A DNA stretch of 64,000 nucleotides from Histomonas meleagridis (Eukaryota > Parabasalia > Tritrichomonadida > Dientamoebidae): positions 417,983 to 481,982 of the forward strand of contig WSYJ01000033.1 of NCBI GenBank assembly GCA_020186115.1, written 5' to 3'. Of this stretch, positions 17,961-64,000 are shown one piece after another. Every line of letters starts with the position of its first letter. The stretch's first letter is position 1. A program made the position numbers and the translations under genes. The notes under the pieces were generated by a model that had not been told where the DNA came from, ran no database searches, and saw only the letters and a program-made list of their open reading frames with translations.

Positions 17961-18166
17961 TAATAAAAGTGAGATCAATAAGGGCAATATTTATATTCTT
18001 CTTATCACAATTTCGATAACGATATCTTTGAATGATTTTTAATCGACCAGAACCGTTAATTTATCGATAAAATCAATTAATATCGATAAAAATAAACCGT
18101 TTTTATCGATGTTAAATCGAAAAAATCGTTTATCGAATTCAATTGATCAATCGAAAGCCGATTATA

Positions 18167-19640: not shown

Positions 19641-20164
19641 TATAATCGAATATCGAACGATAATACGGTTATTTATCGATTTTTATCATTAAAAGCAAAC
19701 CGTTTCATCGATTTTTAACGATTCCCAACCCAGTGGCACTGGTTTAGTTGCCCGATGGTTTTTGGAAGTGACCATTTCATCAACAAAGATTTAAACAACA
19801 ATAATATTTCTCTTTACCCCCTTTTATAGATATTTTATACATTTTCGTTTTGAATTTCAACTTCCGATGCAGTTTGTTAAAAATTTTCCATGAATATAAA
19901 TTCTTCATTTAACGAACTCCGATATTTGACTACGTTTGTTGCCATATTTGATAGCTATCGTTGCTATATTTCAGTACATGGAAATGATCGGCGTTATTCA
20001 AATATAACAACAGACTTAGTTAAAACTGAACGATAAGATTTCCAATTGGAAATTGTTTGGTTTATTCTATAAAAAGTAGCACTTTTGTACTTCTAAGGAA
20101 TTATGATATGAAAAATAATCGTTGCAATATGGCACGATTTCCCCCGTTTGAAAGTGTCTAATTA

Positions 20165-20293
20165 AAATTAAACCAAATATTCTTCATGTCCAGATGTTTA
20201 GTAAATTTTTTTGATCCTAATTGTTATTTTATTATGACTTCATTTACAAGAGATCCTTCTAAAAGTGACACTTATTCAACTCCTATCGTTAGG
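20165..20293 (+). pseudogene. fragment of an unrecognised gene carried in the unit
   Basis: The frame beginning MSRCLVNFFDPNCYFI at 20186 and reaching STPIVR at 20290 is shared with the left arm (50402-50510 region, opposite strand) and the right arm (63898-64000). After STPIVR copy 1 diverges, while the left arm continues into a longer broken gene. It therefore looks like the head of a gene swept into the repeated segment. Function is unknown. Confidence 0.5.
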
Positions 20294-20640
20294 TGCGCCT
20301 TGCCCATTTTGTTCTATTTTTGCCAAAATAGAAAACACTATAAACTTTTTGATGAGATAAATATGATTTCGGATTGATATTTATTTTTTGATTTCAGCAG
20401 AATATAAATCCAAATATGGAAAAATTAATTATTTTGCTTTTGTATCTTCTTATAAAATTTTATTCGACTCTAGATAATCTTTTGGGGTTTGAGAAAGTTC
20501 AAACATCACTGAACTTAGAAATTTAGAATAAAAAAATATAATAAGTTATTAAATAAAATTATAACATTAGAATTCTACAAATTTATTCAAAAAAATATCT
20601 TTCATATAAAATTTTACAAAGAATTAAATCAAACTAATGA
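20294..20640. other. intergenic, nothing recognised
   Basis: AT-rich spacer between the end of the mobile unit and an ankyrin pseudogene. Short frames only. Confidence 0.5.
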
Positions 20641-21730
20641 ATATCTTTAGCATTAATATCAATTCCTTCTTGTTCAAGTAGTAATTTAACTATTTCTGTA
20701 TATAACCTTTTTCAGATGCTAATATAAGTGCTGTATTAAATAATCTAAATAATTTCCAAATATTATTTTGAAATATAAAATTATCAAAATAAAATTTATC
20801 TTCAGCATTAATATAAATTCCTTTTTGCTTTAAAATGTATGTAACAAGTTCAATATTTTCTGAAAATGAAGCAAAAACTAAAATATCTTCTGGAAGTTGA
20901 TTATTTTTAAGGAAATATTTTAAAAGAAAAATATTTCCAATTTTTGCTGCTTCATTAATGATATTTTCATTGATTTTCATTTTTTATTTTTCTAAATATG
21001 TAAAAATTTCATAATTAAAATATGAAACACATTTTTCTCCTAATTCTTTGAATTTATCAATATCTTCAATTTTATTTTCATATATGTATTTGAAAATATC
21101 ATTTCGATGAAATCCAATTGCAGTTTCATATGCATCTTTAAATGATAAATGATTTTGTTCACATAAATGAATAATTTTTTCATCTCCGCCTGCAACTGCA
21201 TATTTACCTGTGTTTTCTACATTTGCTCCATTCATAAGTAAATATTTAAAACAATCAATTGATCCAAAAAATGCTACAAAATCAATTAATGAAACATTTT
21301 CTTGATTAACAAAAGAACATCTTTCATAAAGTGATGGTTCAATTTTCTGGTTAAAATCGAAGTCATTTTGTGCTGATATTTCTTGAAGTTTTTCTATTTC
21401 ATCATTTCGAATTATTTTGGCAATTTCATTTGGGTTAACTCCTTCTTCAATATATTCCTTATGGAGTTCCCAATTATTCTTTGAAAGTTCTTCATAAGAA
21501 ATATTTTCCTGATCAAATAAAGATTTACATTCATCTAATTTATCTTGATTAATATGAACAAAAAATGGTTTACGTATATTTTGAATGATTTTTGATTCAA
21601 GTAAGTTATAATTAATCATGTAATTAAGTAAATAAAATGATTCTTGTGTGTTTTTCTTAAGAAGAAATTGAGTCAGAAAATTTATTATTTTTGTGTTGAT
21701 TTTCTGATTTTCTTCACTACATATAATCAA
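20641..21730 (-). pseudogene. DUF3447/ankyrin gene, broken
   Basis: The frame from 21730 lacks an ATG (it opens at TTG after a stop), so the 5' end is missing. It has the family head: SYEELSKNNWELHKEYIEEG, SLIDFVAFFGSIDCFKYLL, then GKYAVAGGDEKIIHLCEQ. A TAA at 20984-20986 interrupts it, and the same frame resumes at once with MKINENIINEAAKIGN, where the 7.6 kb paralogue has glutamate. It continues into an ankyrin unit with the spacer block IWKLFRLFNTAL and stops being readable near 20641. Loss of start plus an internal stop mark it as a pseudogene or truncated paralogue. Confidence 0.75.
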
Positions 21731-23660: not shown

Positions 23661-26470
23661 TTGATTTCAAACGAAACAACAAATATCAATATTGATCCTA
23701 ATATCCAATTACTTTCTCAACTCGAAAAAATAGTTTTTAATTTGACACATAAAAATTTTGGGTCATCAATTGAAAATACATTAAAATTAGTTGACTTAAA
23801 TTTTCCATTTTCATTTAATCTAATTATTAGTTATTTAGTCAATTCTACATCATATATGTCCAGTGATTTAAATGACTTATATTTAGAGTATTTAGAACAA
23901 ATTCAAATAAAAGAAGAAAACTTTAATAAAGATTCTCCAAACATTTTGAAAATATTTGGTGATTATATATCTGGAATTAACACACAAGAATCATATTATT
24001 TAATTGATAAAATGATTAAAAAAAATATCATTGATAAAAGTGTTATTCAAAGCATTAAAAATAAATATTTTGCACACTATAAAACAAAAAATGAAAATAA
24101 AACGAGATATCATGGAGGTATAACTGAAAAAATATTTTTTGATAATTATGAAGAACTATCAAAGAATAATTGGGAACTTCATAAGAATTTAATTAAAGAA
24201 GGACATAATCCAAATGAAATATCAAAAATAATTCGAAATGATGAAATAGAAAAACTTCAAGAATTATCATCACAAAATAATTTTGATTTTAATCAATATA
24301 TTTTACCATCACTTTATGAAAGATGCTCGTTTATTAATCAAGAAAATATTACATTAATTGATTATGCAGCATTTTTTTCATCTGTTAAATGTTTTAAATA
24401 TTTACTTATGAATGGTGCAAAATTAGAAAACACAGGTAAATATGCAGTTGCAGGTGGAAATGAAGAAATCATTCATTTGTGTGAACAAAACCATTCTTCA
24501 TTTAAAGATGCATATGAAACTGCAATTGAATTTCATCGAAATGATATCTTTAAATATCTTTATGAGAATAAAAATCTTTGTTTTAATGATTTAAACATTT
24601 GATCTCAGAAAATTTTGTGTTTTATACAATAATTATGAAATTTTATCATTTCTAGAAGAAGAAGAAGGTACGACAATTGATGAATCTATAATAAATGAAG
24701 CAGCAAATATTGGCAATATATATCTTGTTAAACATTTTCTACGAAATAATAATATTCCAAAACTCATATTAATTTTTGCTTCTAAATCAGGAAATATTGA
24801 ACTTGTTAAATATATTTATGAACATTATGAACATGACATTAATATTAATACTAAGGATAGTTAATAGATTTATTTCAATTTTATTTTGATAATTTAATTT
24901 TTAAAAAGATCTTTTGGAAATTATTTTAATTTTTTCAAATTGCGCTTTTAAGTGCAAAATATAAAGGAAATATGGAAATAGTTAAATTTCTTCTTGAAAA
25001 ACATAAATTTAATAAGTTTTTAGATATTTGATTGATTTATTTGAATTTTATTTTAATAATGTAATATTCTAAAACAATATTTGGAAATTACATAATTTAT
25101 TTAAAACATTATTTATGTATTTATCTAGATATTATCAAAAAGAAATGATTATGAATTTAATTTTTGAGCAAAAGATATTTGATGTCTATGCTAAAGATGT
25201 TTATTTAAATTATTTAAAATTTATATCAGCAATTTGATTTTTCAAAATAGTATTTGGGAATTATTTAAAATATTTCTTACAGAACTTATGTATGCATCTA
25301 TGGAAGGTTATACAGAAGTAGTTAAATTCTTTCTAGAACAAAATGGAATTGATATTAATGCTAAAGATGATTGTTTGTTTTATTTAAAATTTATTTTAAT
25401 AATTTTGGATTTCAAAAGAATATTTGGAAATTATTTAAATCATTTAGAACAGCACTTTTTTTAGCATCTGAAAATGGTTATATAGATATAGTTAAATTAC
25501 TTCTTGAACAAGATGGAATAATCGTTGATGAAAAATATATTTACATGAAATATTTATTTATTTTAATAATTTGATATTTTAAAATATTGTTTAATAATTT
25601 TTCTTATTTTATAAATTACTTGTTGTAGCATCTGAAAACGGTTATATTGACATTGTTAAGCTTCTTCTTGATAAAAATTTAATTTGTGGTTACTCGAATT
25701 TTATTTAATTTTTTTATTTGATATTTATTTTAATAATATTGTTTATTTGAAATACATTTGATGATGCATTCGTTGGTGCTGTTAAATGTGGTCAGACAAA
25801 AATTGTAAAATATTTTCTTAAAAATTATGATGTTGATGTAAATAATCCAGTTGATATTTATTTTAAAAAAATGAAATTTGTTTTAATAACTTTGGGTTTC
25901 AAGATAATTTTTGGGTTTTTTAAAAATTATTAAAAAAAATTTTAATTTATTCAATACAAGAAGAAAATACAGAAATAGTTAAATTACTTCTTGAACAAGA
26001 AGAAATTGATATTAATGTTAATATTCTTATAGAAGCAACATGTTTTAATGAAATAGTCGAAATATTGATAAACAAAGAAGGTATTGATATTAATGAGAAA
26101 AATATTTATTTGTTTTAAATAAAATATATTTTGATAAATTGACATTATACAATAATATTTGGAAATTATTTAACTTATTTGATACAGCACTTATAATCGC
26201 ATCCCTAAGAGGATATACAGAAATGGTTGAATTACTTCTTGGACATGAAGGAATTGATATTAATATTAAAGATACTTATTTGTTTTAAATAAAATATATT
26301 TTGATAAATTGACATTATACAATAATATTTGGAAAACATTTATTTTATTTAGAACAGCACTTATGATTGCATCTGAAAGAGGATATACAGACATTGTTAA
26401 ATTATTTCATAAATATGAAGGAATTTATATGGAATATGATATTTGTTTTAATAAATTTGATGTTTATTTC
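23661..26470 (+). pseudogene. DUF3447/ankyrin gene, plus strand, broken
   Basis: The frame from 23661 opens at TTG right after an in-frame stop, with no nearby ATG. The head domain is complete (NYEELSKNNWELHKNLIKEG, LIDYAAFFSSVKCFKYLL, GKYAVAGGNEEIIHLCEQ) and runs to a TGA at 24600-24602. One base out of phase the family sequence resumes (YNNYEILSFLEEEEG, IINEAANIGNIYLVKHFL). After 24860 single ankyrin units follow, with landmarks near 24938, 25107, 25279, 25449, 26184 and 26354. Most steps are 170 bp or close to it. The head frameshift and missing start indicate a pseudogene, though the ladder has the same form as at 5.8-7.6 kb. Confidence 0.7.
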
Positions 26471-34767: not shown

Positions 34768-35400
34768 TTATTTATAAAATAATAAATAAAACAAATAAAT
34801 ATTTCCAGTATTATCATTTCGATGAAATTGAATTGCAATTTTAAAAGTTAATTCGAACGATGAATGATTTTGTTCACATAATTGAATGATTTCAACATTT
34901 CCACCAGCAAATGCATATTTACCTGTGTTAATTACTTTTGCATCATTCATAAGTAAATATTTAAAACATTTAACTGATCCAAAAAATGCTGCATATTCAA
35001 TTAATGTAACATTGTTTTGATTAATAAATGAACATCTTCCATAAAGTGATGGTTCGGTTGTTTTGTTTAAATCAAAATTTGGCTGTGATGATATTTCTTG
35101 AAGTTTTTCTATTTCATCATTTCGAATTATTTTCGAAATTTCATTTGGATTAACTCCTTCTTTAATCAATTTCTTATGAAGTTCCCAATCATTCTTTGAT
35201 AATTCTTCATAATTATCTATAAAATCTTGATATTTCCATTTATTATTTAATAGTTCATGATAATTTTCTATAACATCATCGATTTTTTTAATTTCATTGA
35301 ATGAATTTTCTTTTTTATAATGTGCAAAATATTCCGATTTAATAGTTTTAGTAATATTTATATCTATTAGATTTTATTCAATCATTTTTTCTATTAAATA
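34768..35400 (-). pseudogene. DUF3447 head fragment, truncated
   Basis: The complement encodes the family head only: NYEELSKNDWELHKKLIKEG, ISKIIRNDEIEKLQEIS, LIEYAAFFGSVKCFKYLL and GKYAFAGGNVEIIQLCEQ. It then ends after FHRNDNTGNIYLFYL, which joins the head directly to the spacer sequence of an ankyrin unit. The part between the head and the ladder seen in paralogues is missing. There is no ATG. It looks like a deletion-derived remnant. Confidence 0.7.
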
Positions 35401-35541
35401 ATATTATATTACATGAAAGGTTCCCTCCATTTGTGTCGGTTTTGGTAAACGTTTTTTTTAAACAAGAATTCACAACAGCTGTTAAATTTTTAAGTATGAA
35501 GAAAATTGAGGGAGTTCGTTTGGTCTGCCTTTATCCCTTCA

Positions 35542-47805: not shown

Positions 47806-48859
47806 ACGTTTTGAATTGTCTTACATTTATGTCTAAAGAAGTTTTTATTTTATATGTACAAATAATTTTAGATATGTTTTGAGATTGTTTTGCGATATTT
47901 GGGAAAATTTGTGTTAACTATGAAAATTGTTTCCTAAGACAAATAAATGATATACTGCTTTTTGTGCAATTTTAGAATTTTGTGTTAAAAATGATCATTG
48001 TCATTAATAGGGAAATAATGCAAAAATAAATAAATATTGTTATTTTTAATTTGAATTCTTTTATTATAAAAATTATATTACATATGTAATATATTCTATT
48101 AATTTGATATTTTAATACAAAAAAACAATCTTTAAAATAGCAATTTATTGTTTTTAACGTTTTTCAAGTAATACTAATAAAAATAAGAAAAAAACCCTTA
48201 AATGTTACAATATTCACGAAAAAGATTGAAAAATCTTCATGATATATGAATATATTGAATACTAATCATCATAAAAAAATCAATTTATTTTTCATATTTT
48301 TATTTAGTGCAAATGCACTTTTTCTTATATCATTTATTTTATTTAAATATTCATAAAAATTAATAACTCAAACCTTGAATAAAACTATATGATAATCAAG
48401 ATATCTAATGATAAATTCGATTATTCCAAACCAATTTGTCAATAGGCCCAAAGCAAACTGTGATGTCACCGTTGCACTTTTCGATCGACCTTCACAGAAC
48501 TGTGTTCAAAAAGTGGAATCGCTACTGATTTTTTTTCGCCAGTTCACATTTTTTAACTTTCAAAAGTTCTTTTTTGAATTGATACTGATCGGAATTTTAA
48601 TATCTTACTAAACATCCATTGTGTGTAAATTATTTCAAAACACATAAACAACAAGACCTGGGGCTAGACCCAAAACCACATATCAATATTAAGCTAAAAA
48701 CTACATCACAAAAATTCAACTGGTAAAATATTTCACAATTTATATGGAAATTTATTTACAATATACATTGAATCAAATAATGAAATTTATGTAAAATATA
48801 CCAAATATCTTTGGCACACAGTTTATAAAATCACTTTATTTCCGTTAATTTTTTATATT
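47806..48859. other. intergenic, nothing recognised
   Basis: About 1.05 kb between the convergent 3' ends of the exportin-like and IQ-motif genes. AT-rich, with no supported features. Confidence 0.5.
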
Positions 48860-49504
48860 TTACTTATTTTGATTCAGATTTGGCACAACAATTTTTGCTT
48901 TGTTTACACTTCGTATGAAGTTTTCAATTGCTGGCATTGCATCAGCGTCTTTTGTGAACGATGGTGGTTGGAAAATTGATGGAATTGCAGCTGTTGATAC
49001 AAGATAATGCTGATGTAATGCGCTTGCTTCTTGTCTTTTCTTATCTCTTTCATATTTAGCTTGCTTTTGCTCTTCATTTGTACGAACATAATACGCGTCC
49101 AACTCGCGACGCATTTTTGAATTTGCTTCTGAAATGTTTTGAAGATATTTTTGTTGTTTGTAAAAATCAAATATATGTTTCCGGCTCTCATAGCCCCTCC
49201 AGCATCTTTGTATTTTTGTTGCCATTGTGTTAAAATACTTCATTCTTTCATCTCTATTCTTTTCAACAAGCAAACATTTAAATAATCTTTGTGCTTGATG
49301 CTTACGAAATGCGCATTGAATTATAGTTGCCATTTTATTTTGATATTTGATATTTTGTATATTTTCAAATCTTCTGAAACATCTCTGGATTTTTATTGAT
49401 GCTTCATACTCTTCTTCTCGATGTTTTTCTGCAGTTTCAATCATGTCAAAATATTTATCTGTAATGTTCTTCCTTTCGTTGTATATTTTCGCGAAAGAAG
49501 CCAT
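48860..49504 (-). CDS. SPATA17: SPATA17-like IQ-motif protein
   Basis: 214 residues from the ATG complemented at 49502-49504; the frame upstream opens only at GTG. Three IQ motifs are visible: IKIQRCFRRFENIQ, ATIIQCAFRKHQAQR and ATKIQRCWRGYESRKH. After these a charged helix leads to HYLVSTAAIPSIFQPP, which matches the H-Y-L-x-S-T-x-x-I-P-G-I-x-x-P segment that is specific to SPATA17. IQ motifs bind calmodulin-like proteins, and SPATA17 orthologues are axonemal. In a flagellated protist this is a likely flagellar protein. No other flagellar gene is adjacent. Confidence 0.8.
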   Translation of the reverse strand: MASFAKIYNERKNITDKYFDMIETAEKHREEEYEASIKIQRCFRRFENIQNIKYQNKMATIIQCAFRKHQAQRLFKCLLVEKNRDERMKYFNTMATKIQRCWRGYESRKHIFDFYKQQKYLQNISEANSKMRRELDAYYVRTNEEQKQAKYERDKKRQEASALHQHYLVSTAAIPSIFQPPSFTKDADAMPAIENFIRSVNKAKIVVPNLNQNK

Positions 49505-49788
49505 TGAGTTGAAACGTTTCTTTGATTCAGCCACATTTCATAAATCACTCAAAAAATGAACATTCACACACAACAGAGAATTCAAATCATGCATGTAAAC
49601 TTATCAAATTTCGGATGTAATTGAATGATCATTCGGTTTAAAATTTTGATTCAACCAATTTTTACAACACAAAAGAGATACTTTTTCCGATCAAAAGAGC
49701 GATACAAAGAACAACGTCCAGACAAATAAACGGTTGCGTATAAACGCAGAAACAAGAAAATATACTCAAAAGAAAAATGAAAATCATT

Positions 49789-50560
49789 TCAAATGACCAG
49801 AATGTTTATGCAATGTCTGTACTTGACTTTCAACGGCTGCAGGTGATTTTTTGTTTTCGAGTTGATCAACTTACTGATAATCAGCAACAATATTTGAGGT
49901 TGGATGTACGGTGACTTCGCTGGTGATACGCAGGATGAGTTTCCTGGAGAAGCATATGGGGAAAGTTGTTCTTGATTATTATTTTGAATTTCTGCTTCAA
50001 TGGCCAAAAAAATGTGTCATAACAATAATCAACTTTCAAAACAAAATCAACTGGATAAAATGGATGTAAACTCGTATAATTAGGAAACATTTGACTTAAA
50101 ACTAATAAGTTTCGAAATCCTCTTTTTTCATCATCTGTAAGTTTAGTAATTTCTTTGTTAGAAGCATTTCTGGTTGAGACATTGAAATTTCGTTAATGAT
50201 ATTTTGGAAATCTATGTAAGAATTTGTGTACTTTATCAATAGCTGAATAAATTCATTTTCTCTATTAGGATCTTGATTGGCTATGGGTCCACAAAGCATT
50301 GATATAGTTTTTACTATTTCTTCAATTTATTTTTTAATTTCTTCATCTTGAATCAAATTTTGAGGATTAGATTGCGGTAACAGTTTTTGATATAGTTAAC
50401 CCCTAACGATAGGAGTTGAATAAGTGTCACTTTTAGAAGGATCTCTTGTAAATGAAGTCATAATAAAATAACAATTAGGATCAAAAAAATTTACTAAACA
50501 TCTGGACATGAAGAATATTTGGTTTAATTTTAATTAGACACTTTCAAACGGGGGAAATCG
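49789..50560 (-). pseudogene. unrecognised gene, broken, adjoining the palindrome
   Basis: The reverse strand reads MSRCLVNFFDPNCYFI, STPIVRG, TAA, LYQKLLPQSNPQN, DEEIKK, TAA, IEEIVKTISMLCGPIA in one frame. It then shifts phase to TDDEKRGFRNLLVLSQMFPN and HPFYPVDFVLKVDYC, and shifts again near 50000 to a polar tail (SPYASPGNSSCVSPAKS). The amino-acid quality on both sides of each break is good, so this was one protein. I do not recognise it. Its first 36 codons are shared with copy 1 and the right arm. Confidence 0.55.
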
Positions 50561-50952
50561 TGCCATATTGCAACGATTATTTTTCATATCATAATTCCTT
50601 AGAAGTACAAAAGTGCTACTTTTTATAGAATAAACCAAACAATTTCCAATTGGAAATCTTATCGTTCAGTTTTAACTAAGTCTGTTGTTATATTTGAATA
50701 ACGCCGATCATTTCCATGTACTGAAATATAGCAACGATAGCTATCAAATATGGCAACAAACGTAGTCAAATATCGGAGTTCGTTAAATGAAGAATTTATA
50801 TTCATGGAAAATTTTTAACAAACTGCATCGGAAGTTGAAATTCAAAACGAAAATGTATAAAATATCTATAAAAGGGGTAAAGAGAAATATTATTGTTGTT
50901 TAAATCTTTGTTGATGAAATGGTCACTTCCAAAAACCATCGGGCAACTAAAC

Positions 50953-50963
50953 CAGTGCCACTG
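50953..50963. other. CAGTGCCACTG, candidate hAT terminus
   Basis: This short palindrome begins CAGTGCCACTGGGTTGGG and is present in all copies, for example its complement near 19722-19732. hAT elements commonly begin CAGTG or CAGGG, so it may be the outer end of the hAT-like element. The other terminus is not visible because the coding region is interrupted at 54171. Confidence 0.3.
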
Positions 50964-51054
50964 GGTTGGGAATCGTTAAAAATCGATGAAACGGTTTGCT
51001 TTTAATGATAAAAAATCGATAAATAACCGTATTATCGTTCGATATTCGATTATA

Positions 51055-52514
51055 CCATTTTTCACATCATGTTGGCCATTTTCCGTGTCAGAATGGCCAA
51101 CCGTTTTCTATCATAAATCTTAAAATTCAAGATTTAAGAAACCGAATTTTTTTTTGAGTGAAGCATCTTTTAAATTCTATGTTGTAAAATGTTGTATTTG
51201 TTTATTATTTTAAGATGTGTATGCCTAGATATATACCTCGTGTCAAAGATTTAGAGGCTTTAACAAAAACAATTGTGAATGGTGAAGATCTTAATGTAGT
51301 AGGATCAGCTCTTGGAATGTCTTCAAGGACAATTAGAAGAAGAACTCACCAAATTATGGAGAATAATTTTAATTGTCCACCAATTTTAAATAGAAGATGT
51401 TCTCATCATCAAATCGTTACTCCTGAAATGGAAGAATTTATTATAAATTATGTGGGATAAAACAGCGCATCAACACTTCTCGAAATCAAAAATGCTTTAT
51501 TAGAACAGTTTGAAATACCAAATGATCAAATATCTTTATCTATAATTCACTGTCATTTGAATGGAAATTTTGTTTTTTTATGAAAAGCTTCGCTATGTTT
51601 CTGCAAATGCAAATACACCAGAAATAATTCAACAGCGAGTAAATTATTTAAATCAATTGACAAATTTATCAGAGAGTATTCAACAAATTTACATTGATGA
51701 ATCAAATTTTACAATTTTGACAAGAAGAAATATGGGAAGATCTAAATTTGGAAGAAGAGCAGTTCAATCATCATTAATCGATGGATGTAGAAAAATCAAT
51801 ATTTTAGCAGCTGTTAGTCCAAATTATGGTTGGGTATACCATGAAACTGAAACAAATAATGTTGATGCAATTCAATTTGAAGAATATTTTAAAAATTTGA
51901 TTAATGATTTAATAACAAAATAACCAAATCAAAAATTTGTCTTAATTTTAGATAATTATTCAATTCATTGACAATATGAACTACTTAAATTATGCCAAGA
52001 AGCTCAGTTTGTACTTTTATTTCTACCACCATATTCCCCATATCTTAATTTAATTGAAAGATGTTTAAGTCAAATTAGAGCATATGTAAAAAGATATTTA
52101 CATGACAAAAATCAAATACTTCTAGGTACGATTAATCTTCCTTTTGGGAAAAATGGAGTTGTTCGGTTTCAGGTTCTTGAAGAAGCAATAAATGATGCAA
52201 TTCAAAATGTTACAAGGGAAAATGTACAAAATTATTTGAATAATTCATACAAATTTTATCCTATGATATTTCAAATGATACCAATCATAATTGAATAAAT
52301 ACTCTTTTTAATTATTTATATTATTTTATATTAAAAAAATTAAAATGTACATATAAGAAATATCGATATTTTATGGAACACAACATTTTACAACATAAAA
52401 TTTGAAAGATGCTTCACTCAAAAAAAATTCGGTTTAATCTTGAATTTTAAGATTCACCATTAGAAACGGTTGGCCATATTGAAACGGAAAATGGCCAACA
52501 TGATGTGAAAATGG
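51055..52514 (+). mobile_element. Tc1/IS630-like DDE transposon, copy 2
   Basis: Flanked by TATA on each side. Inverted repeats of about 140 bp start CCATTTTTCACATCATGTTG and end with the complement. The transposase runs 51215-52298 with the same frame broken by TAA at 51458-51460, a frameshift near 51565, a TAA at 51921-51923 and a TGA after DNYSIH. Motifs are a helix-turn-helix (SALGMSSRTIRRR), YIDESNFT, LILDNYSIH and LPPYSPYLNLIER. The second aspartate and the glutamate are 34 residues apart (DD34E), the Tc1 spacing. Confidence 0.88.
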
Positions 52515-52718
52515 TATAATCGGCTTTCGATTAATCGATCAAATTCAATAAACGGTTTTTTCGATTTAACATCAATAAAAACCGTTTATTTAACGATATC
52601 AATCGATCTTATCGATAAATTAACGGTTCTGGTCGATTAAAAATCATTCAAAGATCTCGTTTTCGAAATTGTGATAAGAAGAATATAAATATTGCCCTTA
52701 TTGATCTCACTTTTATCA

Positions 52719-54170
52719 ATGATAAATAGTTATAAGCATTTCTCTCAAGCAGCAGACCTATCAATTGACCTAGAAATTACAAATCATCCGCATTCGATTA
52801 TTATAAATGGTTGGTCAAGAAACCTAAAATATCCATTCATTATTGTTCCAATCACAAACATAGAAACGATCCCTTTAACAATTGATACTTCTTATTTTTA
52901 TTGTACACGGTGCAATTCATGGTATTCAATGAATGCCACAATTGGAAACTTAAACAATCACATCAAACATAAACACCATGAACTTATCGAAGAACAATTA
53001 GAACTATCTAACAATGAAAGAAATCGATTATTCAGATTATTCATATTAACATCTGGATTACCGTTCAGAATTTTAGATAATGATATTATTGCACAACTGT
53101 TTCCAGGTATACATACACGAAAAGATCTTGCATCATTCTGCTCTTCTACAGCTGATACAATCAGGAATATAATGGGCTCAAGATTACCTCATGCTTAGAA
53201 AATCTGTCTTTCAATGGATGAATGGAATGACAAAATGTGCAAAAAATTTCTAGGTATTCAAGTACACTGTCGATTCCCAGGAAATTATAACATTTATACT
53301 TTGAATCTTGTACCAATTGAAGAAATGCATGCTACAGCTCAAGTACTATCAAATATCACAAAGGAATGCCTTAGCCAATATAATATTGAAAATGATCAAA
53401 TAGCAGATATGGTTAGTGACTCAGCGCCTGAGATGAAAGCTACGAGTGATATGCTTCAACTGTCATATATTGAATCTTATATTACAAGATTTTATTACAG
53501 CTGCAGGTAATGCATTTGATGACATCAAAGAGATGCAAAGAGATCTTGGAAGTAGTACAGTGTTTAGGGCAGTTCTGTAAAATAATGAATGGATCTCATG
53601 TAATATCTATTCCATCTTATACAGAAACTAGATGGTATAGTATTTATTCAATGGTTAAAGCAGTTAATACTATGCAACCATTAATAATACAATTTCTCAC
53701 AAGTAATGGTACAGCACCTCCTCCAGATGATTTCTGGGATAAAACAAAAGCACTACTAAGTGTACTATAGGGATTCGAAAAAGTATCATTAAACTTAGAA
53801 AGAGATTGTTATGGATCGAGATCATTCGTGATACAATCTTTTCGATTCATCAGTGATCTTGTTCATCAGCTGAATATTCATCCTGAATGGAGGGATGCAG
53901 TGAAAGCATTCGATCAATCGATGATATTATAGTGGGAAATGACCTATGAAAAATATCGTCTGGATTTATAATTAGCACTTGGATTAAATCCATCGCTTCA
54001 TTATGCATCACTAAGGAATGACGAAATTGATGAGGTTGATAGATATATTAGATCTAAGATAAATAGCTCAACCAATCGGCCGATTCAAAAAAATGAAAAT
54101 CAAAATGTATTTACTTATAACTTTAGCACTTGGCAATCAATGAACATTCCAGGAAATGAACAGAACCAAG
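52719..54170 (+). pseudogene. hAT-like transposase, copy 2, interrupted by helicase element
   Basis: The ATG is at 52719. The zinc finger (FYCTRCNS ... HIKHKHHE) and hAT motifs (SDSAPEMKA, ETRWYSIYSM) are readable. The same TAG as in copy 1 ends the first part at 53196-53198. A 20-bp deletion near 53460 removes the CYCH motif and shifts the frame; an extra G near 53571 shifts it again. More in-frame stops follow (TAG at 53768-53770, then TAG and TAA). Coding similarity ends at about 54170, where an (AC)n tract and the 45-nt hairpin begin, inside the frame of NEQNQD. Confidence 0.8.
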
Positions 54171-54184
54171 ACACACACACACAC

Positions 54185-54229
54185 AGCGCTATGTGAGCTT
54201 CGTGCTACGCACTCGCTCCCACTCGCGCT
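54185..54229. repeat. GC-rich 45-nt hairpin, copy H1
   Basis: AGCGC pairs with GCGCT at the ends, GTGAGC with GCTC-C-CAC, and GTGC with GCAC around a TAC loop. It is preceded by an (AC)7 tract at 54171-54184 and followed by ACATAAA. It is one of the most GC-rich spots in the window and marks the left boundary of the helicase element. Confidence 0.85.
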
Positions 54230-54350
54230 ACATAAACTAAAGGATGAACGGCTAAAATCGATTGAATTCTCATAAATCGGTTGGTTTTGATTGAAAGTAA
54301 TAAAATATATTTAAATTCATGATGACATTTATATTTAAAATGTGTGAGGC

Positions 54351-56085
54351 ATGACAAACTAACTAACTAACTAACTAACTAAAAAAGTTATTAGCTAAAG
54401 GAAATTCGGAAAAGCTGAATGAGTTTCTCCATTTTAGTGATTTGACGTGAATATTGCATGTTTACTGGAGCTGATGATGATAACGGATGAGTTGTTGTTA
54501 ATGCTATGTGGAAAGTTGTGTTTTCATTATTTTTTTTCACGACAAACTAACTAACTAACTAACTAACTAAAAAAGAAACTAGCTAAAGGAAATTCGGAAA
54601 AGCTGAATGAGTTTCTCCATTTTAGTGATTTGACGTGAATATTGCATGTTTACTGGAGCTGATGAAAAAATAAAGCTTGCATTTTACTGTTTCTTTGTGT
54701 AATATGTGGTTCTTTTTCCTTTTCTTAAAAATCGATCTTTTATCAAAGTGATTTTTTAGTGTTATTCATCATTGAAAAGCTCCTTGTTGAAACGTTAGTG
54801 TTGAAGTAATTGTTAAACATAGAACACAATTCAGAAACTTCAATTTCTTCATTCGGAATAGTTTTTAAGAAATTCTCAAAAGTTGGTTTTGAATCTTGAA
54901 TTACAATTATTGAATCACTCTCTACATCTTCATCTACTTCCTCAACTAAAGGATCGGTAGATTTTTCAACATTGTCGTATTTTAACACTCCAGCAAATGA
55001 TTTAGTTGCTATTAAATCTTCTTTTAGATAATTAACTCTTTCTGTAAATTCTTCATTCAAAAGTTCAGGAAGTGTATCAGTCAATGATTCATTCAAACGA
55101 AACATTAAAGTTTCAGCATAAGTTTTCACAAGTTTTGAATTTGACATCGCATGAGCGTCAGGAATAATATTTATTTGTTTTTTGATGAAATTCGATATAA
55201 ACAGATACATAATATCAATTAATCTATTAAATTTATTCTTAAATGTTGTTTCAATTAACATAAATTCAGAAGTTTTATTATTCTTGACCGAAAGAGTTAT
55301 TGTAGTTAAAGCATTAATTAATCTTTGCGAAAATTTATCAAGAATTTGCATCGCTCGCTTACCGTTTTTATTTAAATATACGCTTTCAATTGTTTTAGAA
55401 TAATCTTTATCTTTCGGACAAATGTTTTTGACTTTATTCACGAACAATTCGAAATACTCATCAATTAAATCTTGATGGTAATAATTAACGGTTTGATTTA
55501 TGTATTCTGTCAAATTATCAATTACATTTTGATTACACCGAGGATATTTTTTCTAGTTTTTTTCTTTCTTGAATTAAAAATTTCTGAAAATTTTCTGCTT
55601 TCTTCATATCTGATTCAATTAATTCAATTTCATTTTTGCAATTAGATATATATTGATCTTTGAGCATATCAGATGTTATAAATTCATTTTTAGATTTAAA
55701 TATTTCACCCGGTATGTGTTGAATGTTATAATAAATTTGATTTATCATCTTTTCATATTCTTCTTTAGTATATTCTTTATGAAGATAATAATTTCTTTTG
55801 ATTTCTTGCTGATGTTCAACAACAAGTTTATTGATTTTGCTGTTAATGTATTTATTAATTTGTTCTTCTGATGTAAAATTAACAATCGCCATTTAGCTCT
55901 TTATATACAAAAAAAAAAATCAAAAAACTACTTTAAAATTAAACTTAATTTCATTTGTGAGTTTAGTCGAGTAAATCATCAATTTTCAAGTGATTTCACA
56001 TGAATGGAGAAACTCACGGAACAATTTTGAATTTCCTTTAGCTAGTTTCTTTTTTAGTTAGTTAGTTAGTTAGTTTGTCATGTAT
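54351..56085. repeat. sub-element bounded by inverted CATGACAAACTAACT repeats
   Basis: CATGACAAACT followed by (AACT)n occurs at 54350-54381. A second forward copy starts CGACAAACT at 54540, followed by about 100 bp shared with the first. An inverted copy ends TTTGTCATG at 56073-56082. The forward copies share GCTAAAGGAAATTC and TGAGTTTCTCCATT blocks, also found inverted near 56010-56050. They bracket the coiled unknown gene. The set is mirrored in the right arm at 58320-60060. Confidence 0.7.
54743..55892 (-). CDS. coiled charged protein of the helicase element (left-arm copy, frameshifted)
   Basis: The ATG is complemented at 55890-55892. The first frame runs to 55533 and the second continues one base out of phase from 55513 to 54743. 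The break lies at an A-rich stretch near 55545. The protein (about 375 residues) is lysine/glutamate rich and helical, with YINQTVNYYHQDLIDEYF, ALTTITLSVKNNKTSEF, then an acidic block EEVDEDVESDS. A C-terminal segment (VSELCSMFNNYFNT) has a shape like the winged-helix tail of D5-type primases, but this is weak. Function is unknown; it may be a second replication or structural protein of the element. Confidence 0.5.
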
Positions 56086-56102
56086 AAAAATAAATATTAA
56101 TA

Positions 56103-56285
56103 TCATTTATGTTTAGCAAAAAATTCTCTTTCAATTTCTGATTGTTTATGAGGAGTATTACCGCGGAGAAATGAAGCAGGAATTTCATCTTGATATGAAC
56201 GTTGCCCAGGAACGGTAAAAAGTACTTTATACTTATTTGTTTTAGGATTAAATGATAAAATTTTCTCAACAGAACACACACACAC
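56103..56285 (-). CDS. fragment with chromo/integrase-tail-like sequence (left arm)
   Basis: About 55 residues ending TAA: SVEKILSFNPKTNKYKVLFT, then DEIPASFLRGNTPHKQSEI. The pattern V-E-K-I-L followed by Y-x-V-x-F recalls chromodomains and integrase C-terminal domains. The frame runs upstream into the (AC)n tract as alternating V-C codons, with no ATG, so it is truncated exactly at the hairpin copy H2. An integrase tail is a guess. Confidence 0.35.
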   Translation of the reverse strand: MCVCSVEKILSFNPKTNKYKVLFTVPGQRSYQDEIPASFLRGNTPHKQSEIEREFFAKHK

Positions 56286-56289
56286 ACAC

Positions 56290-56334
56290 AGCGCTATGTG
56301 AGCTTCGTGCTACGCACTCGCTCCCACTCGCGCT
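56290..56334. repeat. GC-rich 45-nt hairpin, copy H2
   Basis: Identical in sequence and orientation to H1, preceded by an (AC)n tract at 56274-56289. H1 and H2 are direct repeats 2.1 kb apart that enclose the AACT-bounded sub-element. Confidence 0.85.
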
Positions 56335-56582
56335 ACATAAAAGAAAGCATTAACGATAGAGGATGATTGAAAATTAGGATTAACGGTCGAGTTTAAAATA
56401 AGCATGTGCGAAAAATCTAACTATAACTTGTAACGTAACGTTACCTGTAACTTTGACATTTTGGAAAAAAAGAAGAAGAATAAAGAACATGAGATGCAAA
56501 AACCAAGGTTACGTTACGTTACAGGTTATAAATTAAGTCTAGTTTTAAAGTAGTAATTTGATTTTTTAATGCAACTAAAAAG

Positions 56583-56820
56583 ATGTCAGAAGTCACAATC
56601 GACATAAACGACAAATTCTGTTTAATGGACATTAGAAAAAATAAAAACTATGATTTAAACGGAGATGAAGCAATAAATGATTTAAAGAAATGTTTTTTTA
56701 GTATGTGATTCAACACCTGAAGTATTTATGTTTAAAGATTATGACGCAGTGAATGATTATGTTAAAAGTAAGTTATACATCAGAAAACGTTGCGAAACAA
56801 AAGCTAAAGAAAATAATTAT
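56583..56820 (+). pseudogene. N-terminal piece of the primase-helicase (left arm)
   Basis: Starts with MSEVTIDINDKFCLMDI and is related to the complement of 57818-57580. A 7-T run at about 56694-56700, one T longer than in the right arm, shifts the frame. An extra A near 56766 shifts it again. The copy then joins the helicase domain at about 56823, skipping the middle of the protein. Confidence 0.65.
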
Positions 56821-56823
56821 TGG

Positions 56824-57335
56824 AAGCTTTAGTTATATTAGGAAATCAAGGAACAGGAAAAAATACATTCTTTACAGATGTAATTTGCAAATTAATGGCA
56901 AGATACGCAAATGAAAATGTTACGAATATAGAATCAGTAGTCGGTAAATTTAATGCAACATTAGAAAACAAAAAATTACTGGTTTTAAATGAATTACAAA
57001 GTATTGATACTAATAAATTTTTAAATTCCGATGCATTAAAATCTATTATAACAGATAAAACAATAAATATAAATCAAAAAAATGAACCGATGAGAGAAAC
57101 AGAAAATGTTGCGAATTTTATAATGGTATCGAATAATGATGTTCCAATAAAGATTGAAAGTTATGATAGAAGATATGTTGTAACAAAAACAAGTGATAAG
57201 CATTTACAAGATTTTGATTATTTCTCAAAACTTGCTGATTCATTCACGCCTGAATTTTATGAAAATTTATTTACATTCTTTATGTTAATGGATGTGTCGA
57301 AAAGTAAATTTAGAAGAATTCGAACCAGTAGCTTA
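56824..57335 (+). pseudogene. SF3/D5-type helicase domain, separated from its N-terminus
   Basis: The domain has Walker A GNQGTGKNTFF, Walker B-like KLLVLNEL with the N-E pair, and SF3 motif C in FIMVSNNDVPIKI followed by SYDRRYVV. This is the DUF5906/D5-type superfamily 3 helicase, found in large DNA viruses, virophages, phages and eukaryotic elements, where a hexamer unwinds DNA at the origin. It lies entirely inside the 756-bp palindrome centre, so it exists once. After FRRIRTSS the plus-strand frame becomes antisense of the N-terminal half. Confidence 0.8.
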
Positions 57336-57818
57336 AAGAAAATATCTATCAATTTCTTCATTACCATTTGCTATTACTTCTCTGACGTGATCTAAAAACG
57401 GTTGTATAATTTCTGTTTTTACTTTATCAAGCTTTTTATAATCATGACCTCTAAAGTAAGAAAAAATTTGAGGGTCTTCGGAATAAAATTTTAATGCTTT
57501 TACCGTAAATATTTCTGTATTTTCTAAATATAAATTTCAAGCGGAAACGTTTTTTGTTTTATTTCCTTCGGTCCTTCTCCCAATAATTATTTTCTTTAGC
57601 TTTTGTTTTGCAACGTTTTCTGATGTATAACTTACTTTAACATAATCATTCACTGCGTCATAATCTTTAAACATAAATACTTCAGGTGTTGAATCACATA
57701 CTAAAAAACATTTCTTTAAATCATTTATTGCTTCATCTCCGTTTAAATCATAGTTTTTATTTTTTTTTTTTTTTTTTAAACAGAATTTGTCGTTTATGTC
57801 GATTGTGACTTCTGACAT
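57333..57818 (-). pseudogene. N-terminal half of the primase-helicase (right arm)
   Basis: The ATG is complemented at 57816-57818. The frame reads MSEVTIDINDKFCL, a lysine run from a T stretch, then NYDLNGDEAINDLKKCF, and stops at TGA (57537). It continues past that TGA with LKFYSEDPQIFSYFRGHDYK and IIQPFLDHVREVIANG, the D5_N-type region that normally precedes the Walker A motif. A TAA at 57333-57335 ends it at the junction. The TGA sits where tryptophan is common in the family. Confidence 0.7.
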
Positions 57819-58064
57819 CTTTTTAGTTGCATTAAAAAATCAAATTACTACTTTAAAACTAGACTTAATTTATAACCTGTAACGTAACGTAACCTTGGTT
57901 TTTGCATCTCATGTTCTTTATTCTTCTTCTTTTTTCCAAAATGTCAAAGTTACAGGTAACGTTACGTTACAAGTTATAGTTAGATTTTTCGCACATGCTT
58001 ATTTTAAACTCGACCGTTAATCCTAATTTTCAATCATCCTCTATCGTTAATGCTTTCTTTATGT

Positions 58065-58109
58065 AGCGCGAGTGGGAGCGAGTGCGTAGCACGAAGCTCA
58101 CATAGCGCT
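58065..58109. repeat. GC-rich 45-nt hairpin, copy H3
   Basis: Mirror image of H2 in the right arm, followed by a (TG)n tract. Sequence is the exact complement of H1 and H2. Confidence 0.85.
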
Positions 58110-58113
58110 GTGT

Positions 58114-58296
58114 GTGTGTGTGTGTTCTGTTGAGAAAATTTTATCATTTAATCCTAAAACAAATAAGTATAAAGTACTTTTTACCGTTCCTGGGCAACGT
58201 TCATATCAAGATGAAATTCCTGCTTCATTTCTCCGAGGCAATACTCCTCATAAACAATCAGAAATTGAAAAAGAATTTTTTGCTAAACATAAATGA
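58114..58296 (+). CDS. fragment with chromo/integrase-tail-like sequence (right arm)
   Basis: Mirror copy of 56103-56285, differing by one residue (EIEKEFF instead of EIEREFF). It opens inside the (TG)n tract and has no ATG. Confidence 0.35.
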   Translation: MCVCSVEKILSFNPKTNKYKVLFTVPGQRSYQDEIPASFLRGNTPHKQSEIEKEFFAKHK

Positions 58297-58510
58297 TATT
58301 AATATTTATTTTTATACATGACAAACTAACTAACTAACTAACTAACTAAAAAAGAAACTAGCTAAAGGAAATTCAAAATTGTTCCGTGAGTTTCTCCATT
58401 CATGTGAAATCACTTGAAAATTGATGATTTACTCGACTAAACTCACAAATGAAATTAAGTTTAATTTTAAAGTAGTTTTTTTTTTTTTTAATTTGTATAT
58501 AAAGAGCTAA

Positions 58511-59690
58511 ATGGCGATTGTTAATTTTACATCAGAAGAACAAATTAATAAATACATTAACAGCAAAATCAATAAACTTGTTGTTGAACATCAGAAAAAA
58601 AAAAAAAAAAATTATTATCTTCATAAAGAATATACTAAAGAAGAATATGAAAAGATGATAAATCAAATTTATTATAACATTCAACACATACCGGGTGAAA
58701 TATTTAAATCTAAAAATGAATTTATAACATCTGATATGCTCAAAGATCAATATATATCTAATTGCAAAAATGAAATTGAATTAATTGAATCAGATATGAA
58801 GAAAGCAGAAAATTTTCAGAAATTTTTAATTCAAGAAAGAAAAAAAAAAAAAAAATATCCTCGGTGTAATCAAAATGTAATTGATAATTTGACAGAATAC
58901 ATAAATCAAACCGTTAATTATTACCATCAAGATTTAATTGATGAGTATTTCGAATTGTTCGTGAATAAAGTCAAAAACATTTGTCCGAAAGATAAAGATT
59001 ATTCTAAAACAATTGAAAGCGTATATTTAAATAAAAACGGTAAGCGAGCGATGCAAATTCTTGATAAATTTTCGCAAAGATTAATTAATGCTTTAACTAC
59101 AATAACTCTTTCGGTCAAGAATAATAAAACTTCTGAATTTATGTTAATTGAAACAACATTTAAGAATAAATTTAATAGATTAATTGATATTATGTATCTG
59201 TTTATATCGAATTTCATCAAAAAAACAAATAAATATTATTCCTGACGCTCATGCGATGTCAAATTCAAAACTTGTGAAAACTTATGCTGAAACTTTAATG
59301 TTTCGTTTGAATGAATCATTGACTGATACACTTCCTGAACTTTTGAATGAAGAATTTACAGAAAGAGTTAATTATCTAAAAGAAGATTTAATAGCAACTA
59401 AATCATTTGCTGGAGTGTTAAAATAAAAAAAAAAAAAAAAATCTACCGATCCTTTAGTTGAGGAAGTAGATGAAGATGTAGAGAGTGATTCAATAATTGT
59501 AATTCAAGATTCAAAACCAACTTTTGAGAATTTCTTAAAAACTATTCCGAATGAAGAAATTGAAGTTTCTGAATTGTGTTCTATGTTTAACAATTACTTC
59601 AACACTAACGTTTCAACAAGGAGCTTTTCAATGATGAATAACACTAAAAATCACTTTGATAAAAGATCGATTTTTAAGAAAAGGAAAAAG
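58511..59690 (+). pseudogene. coiled charged protein of the helicase element (right-arm copy)
   Basis: Same ATG as the left-arm copy. It reads through the point where the left copy is frameshifted, but breaks at 59243-59245 because of one extra A near 59220. Three stretches are replaced by A runs (58595-58611, 58840-58855, 59413-59430), the last creating a TAA. The left arm has ordinary sequence of the same or nearly the same length at each spot. Confidence 0.6.
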
Positions 59691-60173
59691 AACCACATAT
59701 TACACAAAGAAACAGTAAAATGCAAGCTTTATTTTTTCATCAGCTCCAGTAAACATGCAATATTCACGTCAAATCACTAAAATGGAGAAACTCATTCAGC
59801 TTTTTCCGAATTTCCTTTAGCTAGTTTCTTTTTTAGTTAGTTAGTTAGTTAGTTAGTTTGTCGTGTTAAAAAATAATGAAAACACAACTTTCCACATAGC
59901 ATTAACAACAACTCATCCGTTATCATCATCAGCTCCAGTAAACATGCAATATTCACGTCAAATCACTAAAATGGAGAAACTCATTCAGCTTTTCCGAATT
60001 TCCTTTAGCTAATAACTTTTTTAGTTAGTTAGTTAGTTAGTTAGTTTGTCATGCCTCACACATTTTAAATATAAATGTCATCATGAATTTAAATATATTT
60101 TATTACTTTCAATCAAAACCAACCGATTTATGATAATTCAATCGATTTTAGCCGTTCATCCTTTAGTTTATGT

Positions 60174-60218
60174 AGCGCGAGTGGGAGCGAGTGCGTAGCA
60201 CGAAGCTCACATAGCGCT
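60174..60218. repeat. GC-rich 45-nt hairpin, copy H4
   Basis: Mirror image of H1. It marks the right boundary of the helicase element, after which hAT coding sequence resumes on the reverse strand. Confidence 0.85.
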
Positions 60219-60232
60219 GTGTGTGTGTGTGT

Positions 60233-61683
60233 CTTGGTTCTGTTCATTTCCTGGAATGTTCATTGATTGCCAAGTGCTAAAGTTATAAGTAAATACATTT
60301 TGATTTTCATTTTTTTGAATCGGCCGATTGGTTGAGCTATTTATCTTAGATCTAATATATCTATCAACCTCATCAATTTCGTCATTCCTTAGTGATGCAT
60401 AATGAAGCGATGGATTTAATCCAAGTGCTAATTATAAATCCAGACGATATTTTTCATAGGTCATTTCCCACTATAATATCATCGATTGATCGAATGCTTT
60501 CACTGCATCCCTCCATTCAGGATGAATATTCAGCTGATGAACAAGATCACTGATGAATCGAAAAGATTGTATCACGAATGATCTCGATCCATAACAATCT
60601 CTTTCTAAGTTTAATGATACTTTTTCGAATCCCTATAGTACACTTAGTAGTGCTTTTGTTTTATCCCAGAAATCATCTGGAGGAGGTGCTGTACCATTAC
60701 TTGTGAGAAATTGTATTATTAATGGTTGCATAGTATTAACTGCTTTAACCATTGAATAAATACTATACCATCTAGTTTCTGTATAAGATGGAATAGATAT
60801 TACATGAGATCCATTCATTATTTTACAGAACTGCCTAAACACTGTACTACTTCCAAGATCTCTTTGCATCTCTTTGATGTCATCAAATGCATTACCTGCA
60901 GCTGTAATAAAATCTTGTAATATAAGATTCAATATATGACAGTTGAAGCATATCACTCGTAGCTTTCATCTCAGGCGCTGAGTCACTAACCATATCTGCT
61001 ATTTGATCATTTTCAATATTATATTGGCTAAGGCATTCCTTTGTGATATTTGATAGTACTTGAGCTGTAGCATGCATTTCTTCAATTGGTACAAGATTCA
61101 AAGTATAAATGTTATAATTTCCTGGGAATCGACAGTGTACTTGAATACCTAGAAATTTTTTGCACATTTTGTCATTCCATTCATCCATTGAAAGACAGAT
61201 TTTCTAAGCATGAGGTAATCTTGAGCCCATTATATTCCTGATTGTATCAGCTGTAGAAGAGCAGAATGATGCAAGATCTTTTCGTGTATGTATACCTGGA
61301 AACAGTTGTGCAATAATATCATTATCTAAAATTCTGAACGGTAATCCAGATGTTAATATGAATAATCTGAATAATCGATTTCTTTCATTGTTAGATAGTT
61401 CTAATTGTTCTTCGATAAGTTCATGGTGTTTATGTTTGATGTGATTGTTTAAGTTTCCAATTGTGGCATTCATTGAATACCATGAATTGCACCGTGTACA
61501 ATAAAAATTAGAAGTATCAATTGTTAAAGGGATCGTTTCTATGTTTGTGATTGGAACAATAATGAATGGATATTTTAGGTTTCTTGACCAACCATTTATA
61601 ATAATCGAATGCGGATGATTTGTAATTTCTAGGTCAATTGATAGGTCTGCTGCTTGAGAGAAATGCTTATAACTATTTATCAT
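60233..61683 (-). pseudogene. hAT-like transposase, copy 3
   Basis: Mirror copy of 52719-54170. It shares the TAG at 61204-61206, the deletion of the CYCH motif and the later stops with copy 2, but lacks the extra G of copy 2, so GSSTVFRQFCKIM is intact here. The C-terminal end stops at the (TG)n/hairpin boundary. Confidence 0.8.
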
Positions 61684-61891
61684 TGATAAAAGTGAGACTC
61701 AATAAGGGCAATATTTATATTCTTCTTATCACAATTTCGAAAACGAGATCTTTGAATGATTTTTTTAATCGACCAGAACCGTTAATTTATCGATAAGATC
61801 GATTGATATCGATTAAAATAAACGGTTTTTATTGATGTTAAATCGAAAAACCGTTTATTGAATTTGATCGATTAATCGAAAGCCGATTATA

Positions 61892-63354
61892 CCATTTTCA
61901 CATCATGTTGGCCATTTTCGTCCGTTTCAATATGGCCAACCGTTTTCTAATGGTGAATCTTAAAATTCAAGATTAAACCGAATTTTTTTTGAGTGAAGCA
62001 TCTTTCAAATTTTATGTTGTAAAATGTTGTGTTCCATAAAATATCGATATTTCTTATATGTACATTTTAATTTTTTTAATATAAAATAATATAAATAATT
62101 AAAAAAAGTATTTATTCAATTATGATTGGTATCATTTGAAATATCATAGGATAAAATTTGTATGAATTATTCAAATAATTTTGTACATTTTCCCTTGTAA
62201 CATTTTTGAATTGCATCATTTATTGCTTCTTCAAGAACCTGAAACCGAACAACTCCATTTTTTCCCAAAAGGAAGATTAATCGTACCTAGAAGTATTTGA
62301 TTTTTGTCATGTAAATATCTTTTTTCATATTCTCTAATTTGACTTAAACATCTTTCAATTAAATTAAGATATGGGGAATATAGTGGTAGAAATAAAAAGT
62401 ACAAACTGAGCTTCTTGGCATAATTTAAGTAGTTCATATTGTCAATGAATTGAATAATTATCTAAAATTAAGACAAATTTTTGATTTGGTTATTTTGTTA
62501 TTAAATCATTAATCAAATTTTTAAAATATTCTTCAAATTGAATTGCATCAACATTATTTGTTTCAGTTTCATGGTATACCCAACCATAATTTGGACTAAC
62601 AGCTGCTAAAATATTGATTTTTCTACATCCATCGATTAATGATGATTGAACTGCTCTTCTTCCAAATTTAGATCTTCCCATATTTCTTCTTGTCAAAATT
62701 GTAAAATTTGATTCATCAATGTAAATTTGTTGAATACTCTCTGATAAATTTGTCAATTGATTTAAATAATTTACTCGCTGTTGAATTATTTCTGGTGTAT
62801 TTGCATTTGCAGAAACATAGCGAAGCTTTTCATAAAAAACAAAATTTCCATCCAAATGACAGTGAATCGTAGATAAAGATATTTGATCATTTGGTATTTC
62901 AAACTGTTCTAATAAAGCATTTTTTTTTTTTTTTTGTGTTGATGCGCTGTTTTATCCCACATAATTTATAATAAATTCTTCCATTTCAGGAGTAACGATT
63001 TGATGATGAGAACATCTTCTATTTAAAATTGGTGGACAATTAAAATTATTCTCCATAATTTGGTGAGTTCTTCTTCTAATTGTCCTTGAAGACATTCCAA
63101 GAGCTGATCCTACTACATTAAGATCTTCACCATTCACAATTGTTTTTGTTAAAGCCTCTAAATCTTTGACACGAGGTATATATCTAGGCATACACATCTT
63201 AAAATAATAAACAAATACAACATTTTACAACATAGAATTTAAAAGATGCTTCACTCAAAAAAAATTCGGTTTTTTAATCTTGAATTTTTAGATTTATTAT
63301 TAAAAACGGTTGGCCATTCTGAAACGGAAAATGGCCAACATGATGTGAAAATGG
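61892..63354 (-). mobile_element. Tc1/IS630-like DDE transposon, copy 3
   Basis: Flanked by TATA, with the same long inverted repeats. The transposase is on the reverse strand (helix-turn-helix part 62952-63197, catalytic part 62490-62855, then an LPLYSPYLNLIER segment). A T run at about 62921-62935 replaces sequence that copies 1 and 2 both have. The stops shared by copies 1 and 2 are present. Confidence 0.85.
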
Positions 63355-64000
63355 TATAATCGAATATCGAACGATAATACGGTTATTTATCGATTTTTAT
63401 CATTAAAAGCAAACCGTTTCATCGATTTTTAACGATTCCCAACCCAGTGGCACTGGTTTAGTTGCGCGATGGTTTTTGGAAGTGACCATTTCATCAACAA
63501 AGATTTAAACAACAATAATATTTCTCTTTCCCCCTTTTATAGATATTTTATACATTTTCGTTTTGAATTTCAACTTCCGATGCAGTTTGTTAAAAATTTT
63601 CCATGAATATAAATTCTTCATTTAACGAACTCCGATATTTGACTACGTTTGTTGCCATATTTGATAGCTATCGTTGCTATATTTCAGTACATGGAAAATG
63701 ATCGGCGTTATTCAAATATAACAACAGACTTAGTTAAAACTGAACGATAAGATTTCCAATTGGAAATTGTTTGGTTTATTCTATAAAAAGTAACTCTTTG
63801 TACTTCTAAGGAATTATGATATGAAAAATAATCGTTGCAATATGGCACGATTTCCTGTTTGAAAGTGTCTAATTAAAATTAAACCAAATATTCTTCATGT
63901 CCAGATGTTTAGTAAATTTTTTGATCCTAATTGTTATTTTATTATGACTTCATTTACAAGAGATCCTTCTAAAAGTGACACTTATTCAACCTCTATCGTT

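Follow-up and report, generated by a model that had tools for sequence, protein, structure and literature searches.

The right-hand end of the window, a 64,000-nucleotide stretch of DNA from the poultry parasite Histomonas meleagridis (C27:417983-481982), is a mirror of nested transposable elements, and we judge this mirror to be a fold-back at the end of contig C27 with a probability of about 0.6. The evidence makes a chimera more likely than a true palindrome but falls short of proof, and both the absence of the second arm from the chromosome and the route by which it arose are what we infer. The first-pass annotation of the window had offered palindrome and chimera side by side, the former with cruciform extrusion or fold-back replication products as possible consequences; its further suggestion, a head-to-head dimer of a linear replicon with hairpin ends, gained no positive support here. 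All coordinates are those of the window unless a contig (C plus a number) is named, and the assembly searched has 121 contigs and 43,276,120 bases.

In a blastn comparison of the window with itself, arm 1 (50405-56826, forward strand) mirrors arm 2 (64000-57577, reverse strand) at 98.45% identity over 6441 columns, with 64 mismatches and 28 gap openings. The reverse-complement arms of more than 6.4 kb that had been annotated are thus borne out, and at such a length chance is excluded as the origin of the mirror. The centre between them is present too, but measures 750 bp (56827-57576) rather than the 756 bp claimed. What the annotation missed is that C27 (481,982 bp) stops at window base 64000. 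The mirror reaches the end of the contig without passing into a different flank.

From the outside to the centre, each arm carries a hAT-like composite, into which an IS630-like element is nested, then a 2.1-kb repeat and then the beginning of a DUF5906 helicase element. In arm 1 these lie on the forward strand at 50402-54168 (the composite), 51039-52530 (the IS630-like element, with inverted ends of ~160 bp), 54171-56275 (the 2.1-kb repeat) and 56276-56826 (the first ~550 bp of the helicase element). The arm 2 counterparts of the last three are 61876-63370, ~58130-60233 and 57577-58129, respectively. A third copy of the outer 3.65 kb, also missed before, stands on the reverse strand at 16611-20293 and is 96.6% and 96.2% identical to the two arms; it shares 50402-54049 with arm 1 and lacks the last ~120 bp of the composite.

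The composite is near full length at three places, all in C27 (best 40 of 72 candidates), and the matches listed for the 2.1-kb repeat include near-full copies on seven other contigs. The junctions that join the three parts of the nested block are spanned by no match outside the arms among the matches listed (best 40 of 140 candidates). Since, within that scope, these junctions are peculiar to the two arms, one nested block has been either duplicated or read twice.

Arm 2 ends at the base that mirrors 50405, and the boundary of the composite common to the third copy is at 50402. C27 thus ends a few bases from the point at which unique DNA would be expected to border the mirror, and the contig stops where a repeat ends and several flanks compete. 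Such a stop suits an assembler that works on a repeat graph. The left flank of arm 1 (48800-50400) has no second exact copy in the assembly, its only other match being 84% over ~600 bp in C92. The searched assembly is almost certainly the published one of the virulent strain, probably in a filtered deposit. PMC8529796 gives the published assembly as 43,414,808 bp in 187 contigs with 28.66% guanine plus cytosine; it was built from Nanopore reads by Flye (--meta) and went through three rounds of refinement by racon with Illumina reads. At another contig end, that of C36, a 140-base piece recurs at 100% near the starts of C90, C89 and C17 and is found also in C30 (~1370.7 kb) and C61; it is a repeat at which contigs break.

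The two arms differ in quality, and arm 2 has an unpolished look. Many of their differences come in blocks, in which arm 2 has a single-base run and arm 1 has mixed sequence. Arm 2 holds six A/T runs of 14-18 nt, one of them extending an 11-nt run of arm 1, while runs of at least 10 nt number one in arm 1 and three in the remaining 50.4 kb of the window. With the third copy as judge, arm 2 has 34 private columns and arm 1 has 22, or 32 versus 5 without the terminal-repeat tracts. In the 2.1-kb repeat, judged by three copies, the private columns are 16 and 10, respectively. Poor base calls past the junction are described also for verified inverted duplications in PMC7229812, so quality alone is not decisive.

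With the long A/T runs masked, the substitutions between the arms are 6/2028, 26/3609 and 2/529. The arms are each other's closest relatives, with fewer substitutions per base than to any other copy compared; the margin is small in the helicase part, where 2/529 stands against a next best of 3/440.

The centre departs from the usual helicase gene. The other copies of this gene are ordered A, a (~240 bp), ~50 bp and B. Arm 1 runs from A directly into B (56826 to ~57345) and then, via ~7-9 shared bases, into the reverse complement of a (~57337-57576) and the reverse of A. No other occurrence of this central join turned up in the assembly (31/31 candidates scored), and by eye the bases beside it (57320-57351) resemble a garbled version of the usual helicase sequence. 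Of the other close copies of piece B, 19 in all, 11 have a contig end no more than 2.5 kb away, so the helicase repeat tends to break the assembly.

A mirror that runs toward a contig end is found also in C88. Around ~446.7 kb its arms are 99.1% identical over 3020 columns near the centre, and farther out they match at 100% and 99% (rounded by the search) to within 135 bases of the contig end. The mirror (C88:423633-469307) continues past a palindromic element, one of a family described below, toward that end. The last 135 bases are unmatched in the search and resemble a garbled mirror by eye. The mirrored coordinates drift by ~580 bp from the centre to the end, hence one C88 arm lost or gained sequence. 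C88 thereby links a palindromic element to a mirrored flank, as we would expect from an assembler that has no reads reaching across a true palindrome.

At the end of C62 (185484-188506) two copies of the helicase element face each other. They are distinct, being 11/458 apart, and the right copy is 3-7/458 from several others. Not being closest relatives, they form an inverted pair and not a fold-back of one copy, and we rejected the idea that C62 holds the same artefact as C27 on this ground.

We favour the fold-back for C27 because of the contig-end position, the poorer arm 2, the single garbled join and the C88 example. Arm 2 would be a second reading of arm 1, appended to the end of C27. 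The assembler would have been led from arm 1 through the helicase gene and then back on the opposite strand, to halt at the end of the composite repeat with its several competing flanks. It may have followed either fold-back Nanopore reads, which PMC12870357 puts at 0.55-0.6% of Nanopore genomic reads, or overlaps running back through inverted copies of the helicase repeat. Several findings weigh against this. The centre is asymmetric, piece a being in arm 2 and not arm 1 and piece B in arm 1 and not arm 2, and with its 750 bp it fails the expectation of a symmetric turn with little between the halves. Typically less than half of the artefact reads have more than 11 bp unmatched between the halves (PMC12870357), so such a centre is untypical of an artefact. 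In one terminal-repeat tract the two arms diverge, with arm 1 near the copy in C99 and arm 2 resembling the third copy, which could stem from short-read cross-polishing of arm 1 or from gene conversion. At 7 columns of the 2.1-kb repeat, each arm agrees with a different other copy. Long A/T runs occur elsewhere as well (14 of at least 12 nt in 149.1 kb of other sampled loci, many in repeats), and the C62 arms have none of at least 9 nt, the sampled C88 stretches just two, of 9 and 10 nt. Mirrored ends are no general feature: 0/13 other contig ends are mirrored in their own contig among the best 40 of 202 candidates, a scope that makes the result weaker for multi-copy pieces, and the idea that all contig ends fold back is unsupported. 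Moreover, palindromes inside contigs exist in the same genome.

A genuine and recent inverted duplication of the nested transposon block is a substantial minority possibility, given that the centre is asymmetric, that one tract is arm-specific and that palindromes exist inside contigs. An end that had broken or stalled in the helicase gene would have folded back at a short homology, for which the 7-9 bases common at the join speak, and ~6.4 kb would have been copied in reverse. Later central deletions would give the asymmetry, and the contig would stop as the outer repeat is unresolvable. The 7 columns with both states in other copies fit this too, as do the arms of 8-10 kb inside C74 and C61, but the elements there have a different common centre, hence are not copies of the C27 mirror. 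Also against it are a right flank absent from the assembly, an error-rich arm 2 and a join that is seen nowhere else and is garbled by eye. A head-to-head dimer or hairpin end of a linear replicon is very improbable. It would suit the position at the contig end and the several helicase-element copies near contig ends, but the fold points differ in C27, C62 and C88 where the same terminal sequence is expected, the left side is joined to 480 kb of ordinary contig, and the 65-bp repeat that opens the helicase element folds not clearly better than its shuffles (z -1.45; 15/200 shuffles fold equally well). Exact TTAGGG x3 has no match in the assembly, and the telomere repeat of the species may differ. 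Just as improbable is the independent insertion of two copies of each element in opposite orientation, for which the C62 helicase pair, whose right copy resembles several other loci more than it does the left one, is an example. In C27, the nested junctions are common to both arms and in no other listed match (best 40 of 72 and 40 of 140), and the arms are closest to each other; we rejected independent insertions there on account of these junctions. Among these readings, the fold-back stays our preferred one for C27.

The family of palindromic elements inside contigs is a more interesting result than the C27 mirror. Its members in C74 (~511.9-532.7 kb), C61 (~89.4-106.0 kb), C88 (~435-458 kb) and C4 (the whole contig) have a common centre of 596-597 bp and arms of ~8-10 kb. 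Among the best 40 of 130 candidates, the C88 inner arm recurs with the same centre in C4 (4184-7192 and 7790-10797, 99%) and C74 (519165-522024 and 522621-525489, 93-94%), and in parts in C61 (96176-98239 and 99245-101277). C4 (15,498 bp) is palindromic over nearly its whole length. The outer-arm sequence is in both arms of all four, and single partial copies of it are at the starts of C38, C2 and C13. C27 is absent among the matches listed to the inner or outer arm of the family, and its mirror does not have the shared centre.

Two of the members are flanked by non-mirrored DNA. In C74 (984,133 bp), a piece at a distance of 8.0 kb from the centre has a 100% mirror and a 73% pair ~10.4 kb out is also symmetric, while pieces 12, 14, 17, 20 and 30 kb out have no mirror among the best 40 of 130 candidates. 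In C61, mirroring is seen at 6.9, 8.0 and 8.7 kb from the centre (at 8.7 kb in part and at 89%) and is not seen at 13.2 and 16.2 kb (best 40 of 51 candidates in both cases); its arms differ by an insertion or deletion of ~1.8 kb. Lying inside long contigs with such flanks, the two are not whole-contig fold-backs, and as assembled they appear genuine. The proposition that every palindrome in the assembly is an artefact is contradicted by C74 and C61.

The sampled arms of the family hold an HNH endonuclease open reading frame (ORF; HNH_3) in C88 and a helicase-like ORF of 579 amino acids, whose DUF5906 match is just under the cut-off (26.4 versus 27.6 bits). The latter has 27 relatives in a protein search (best 7994 candidates), 26 of them unnamed and one a 'hypothetical protein'. 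None of 11 matches to the Polinton-type polymerase DNA_pol_B_2 (PF03175) is in the palindromic elements. Literature searches found no work on parabasalid Maverick palindromes and nothing on topic on Histomonas palindromes.

The C27 mirror, known from the assembly alone, can be set beside several known systems. It is like the Nanopore fold-back artefact reads of PMC12870357 in that one locus is mirrored on the opposite strand in Nanopore data, here at a contig end, and unlike them in its asymmetric, long centre. Its poorer second arm is as in the genuine inverted duplications by Nanopore of PMC7229812, whereas the junctions there were verified by short reads. With the C74, C61, C88 and C4 elements it shares two kilobase-scale arms, a centre of several hundred bp and the genome, but those elements are recurrent with one centre in common, and the C27 centre is a different gene and single. 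In foldback-type transposons, long inverted repeats make up most of the element, as in C27. Unlike in them, the C27 arms consist of other, separately known repeats, and no element ends or target duplication are seen.

The window centre is another copy of the helicase gene found at the C62 end, where an open stretch of 318 amino acids matches DUF5906 (79.9 bits, cut-off 27.6) and also VapE-like (30.2 bits, cut-off 25). The annotated 'half of a helicase element' per arm is roughly fair, given that each arm has only its first part. The element is multi-copy, being at 56276-57345 of the window and at 19 other places, and among its 124 related proteins are a 724-member cluster from Trichomonas vaginalis and a Tritrichomonas foetus protein named Poxvirus D5. 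We found no literature linking Trichomonas vaginalis with DUF5906. The 2.1-kb repeat and the helicase element open with a common ~65 bp (54171-54236 and 56275-56340), (AC)n and then AGCGCTATGTGAGC...CTACATA, and the first ~184 bp of the 2.1-kb repeat are also found alone at several places.

As to the other genes, the Tc1/IS630-like label fits, the arm 2 ORF 62493-62951 scoring 28.6 bits against DDE_3, a value equal to the Pfam cut-off. Support for the hAT-like label is weak: the arm 1 ORF 52689-53195 matches no family, and DUF659 is met just below its cut-off (32.0 versus 34.7 bits) on the third copy (ORF 16893-17480), which is ~96.5% identical to the arms. A SPATA17-like gene proposed at 48.9-49.5 kb is unconfirmed, as the profile search gave IQ motifs only. 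Neither tRNA (scanned with the bacterial code) nor Rfam families were found in the window. Diverged repeats, 66-85% alike, are at 5830-8381, 20579-21497, 23990-26466 and 34812-35407, and their ORFs are ankyrin-like by eye only.

If the fold-back is true, at least two contig ends (C27, and C88 beyond its palindromic element) repeat sequence in mirror image, and mirrored ends make nested elements seem more numerous than they are. Otherwise, the C27 mirror is a 13.6-kb protist palindrome of very recent origin. That the C27 mirror is a real and recent in vivo inverted duplication, in a genome also keeping giant palindromic mobile elements (~16-21 kb; C74, C61, C88 and C4), seems rather unlikely to us. 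In that case, trichomonad elements that bear a helicase might give rise to palindromes through fold-back replication, sometimes as fixed elements and sometimes from copied neighbouring DNA as in C27. Whether or not the C27 mirror is real, palindromes of ~16-21 kb are brought to light within contigs of this genome. Cells generally do not maintain long palindromes stably, which raises the question of how a trichomonad keeps them and whether their arms are rebuilt at each replication.

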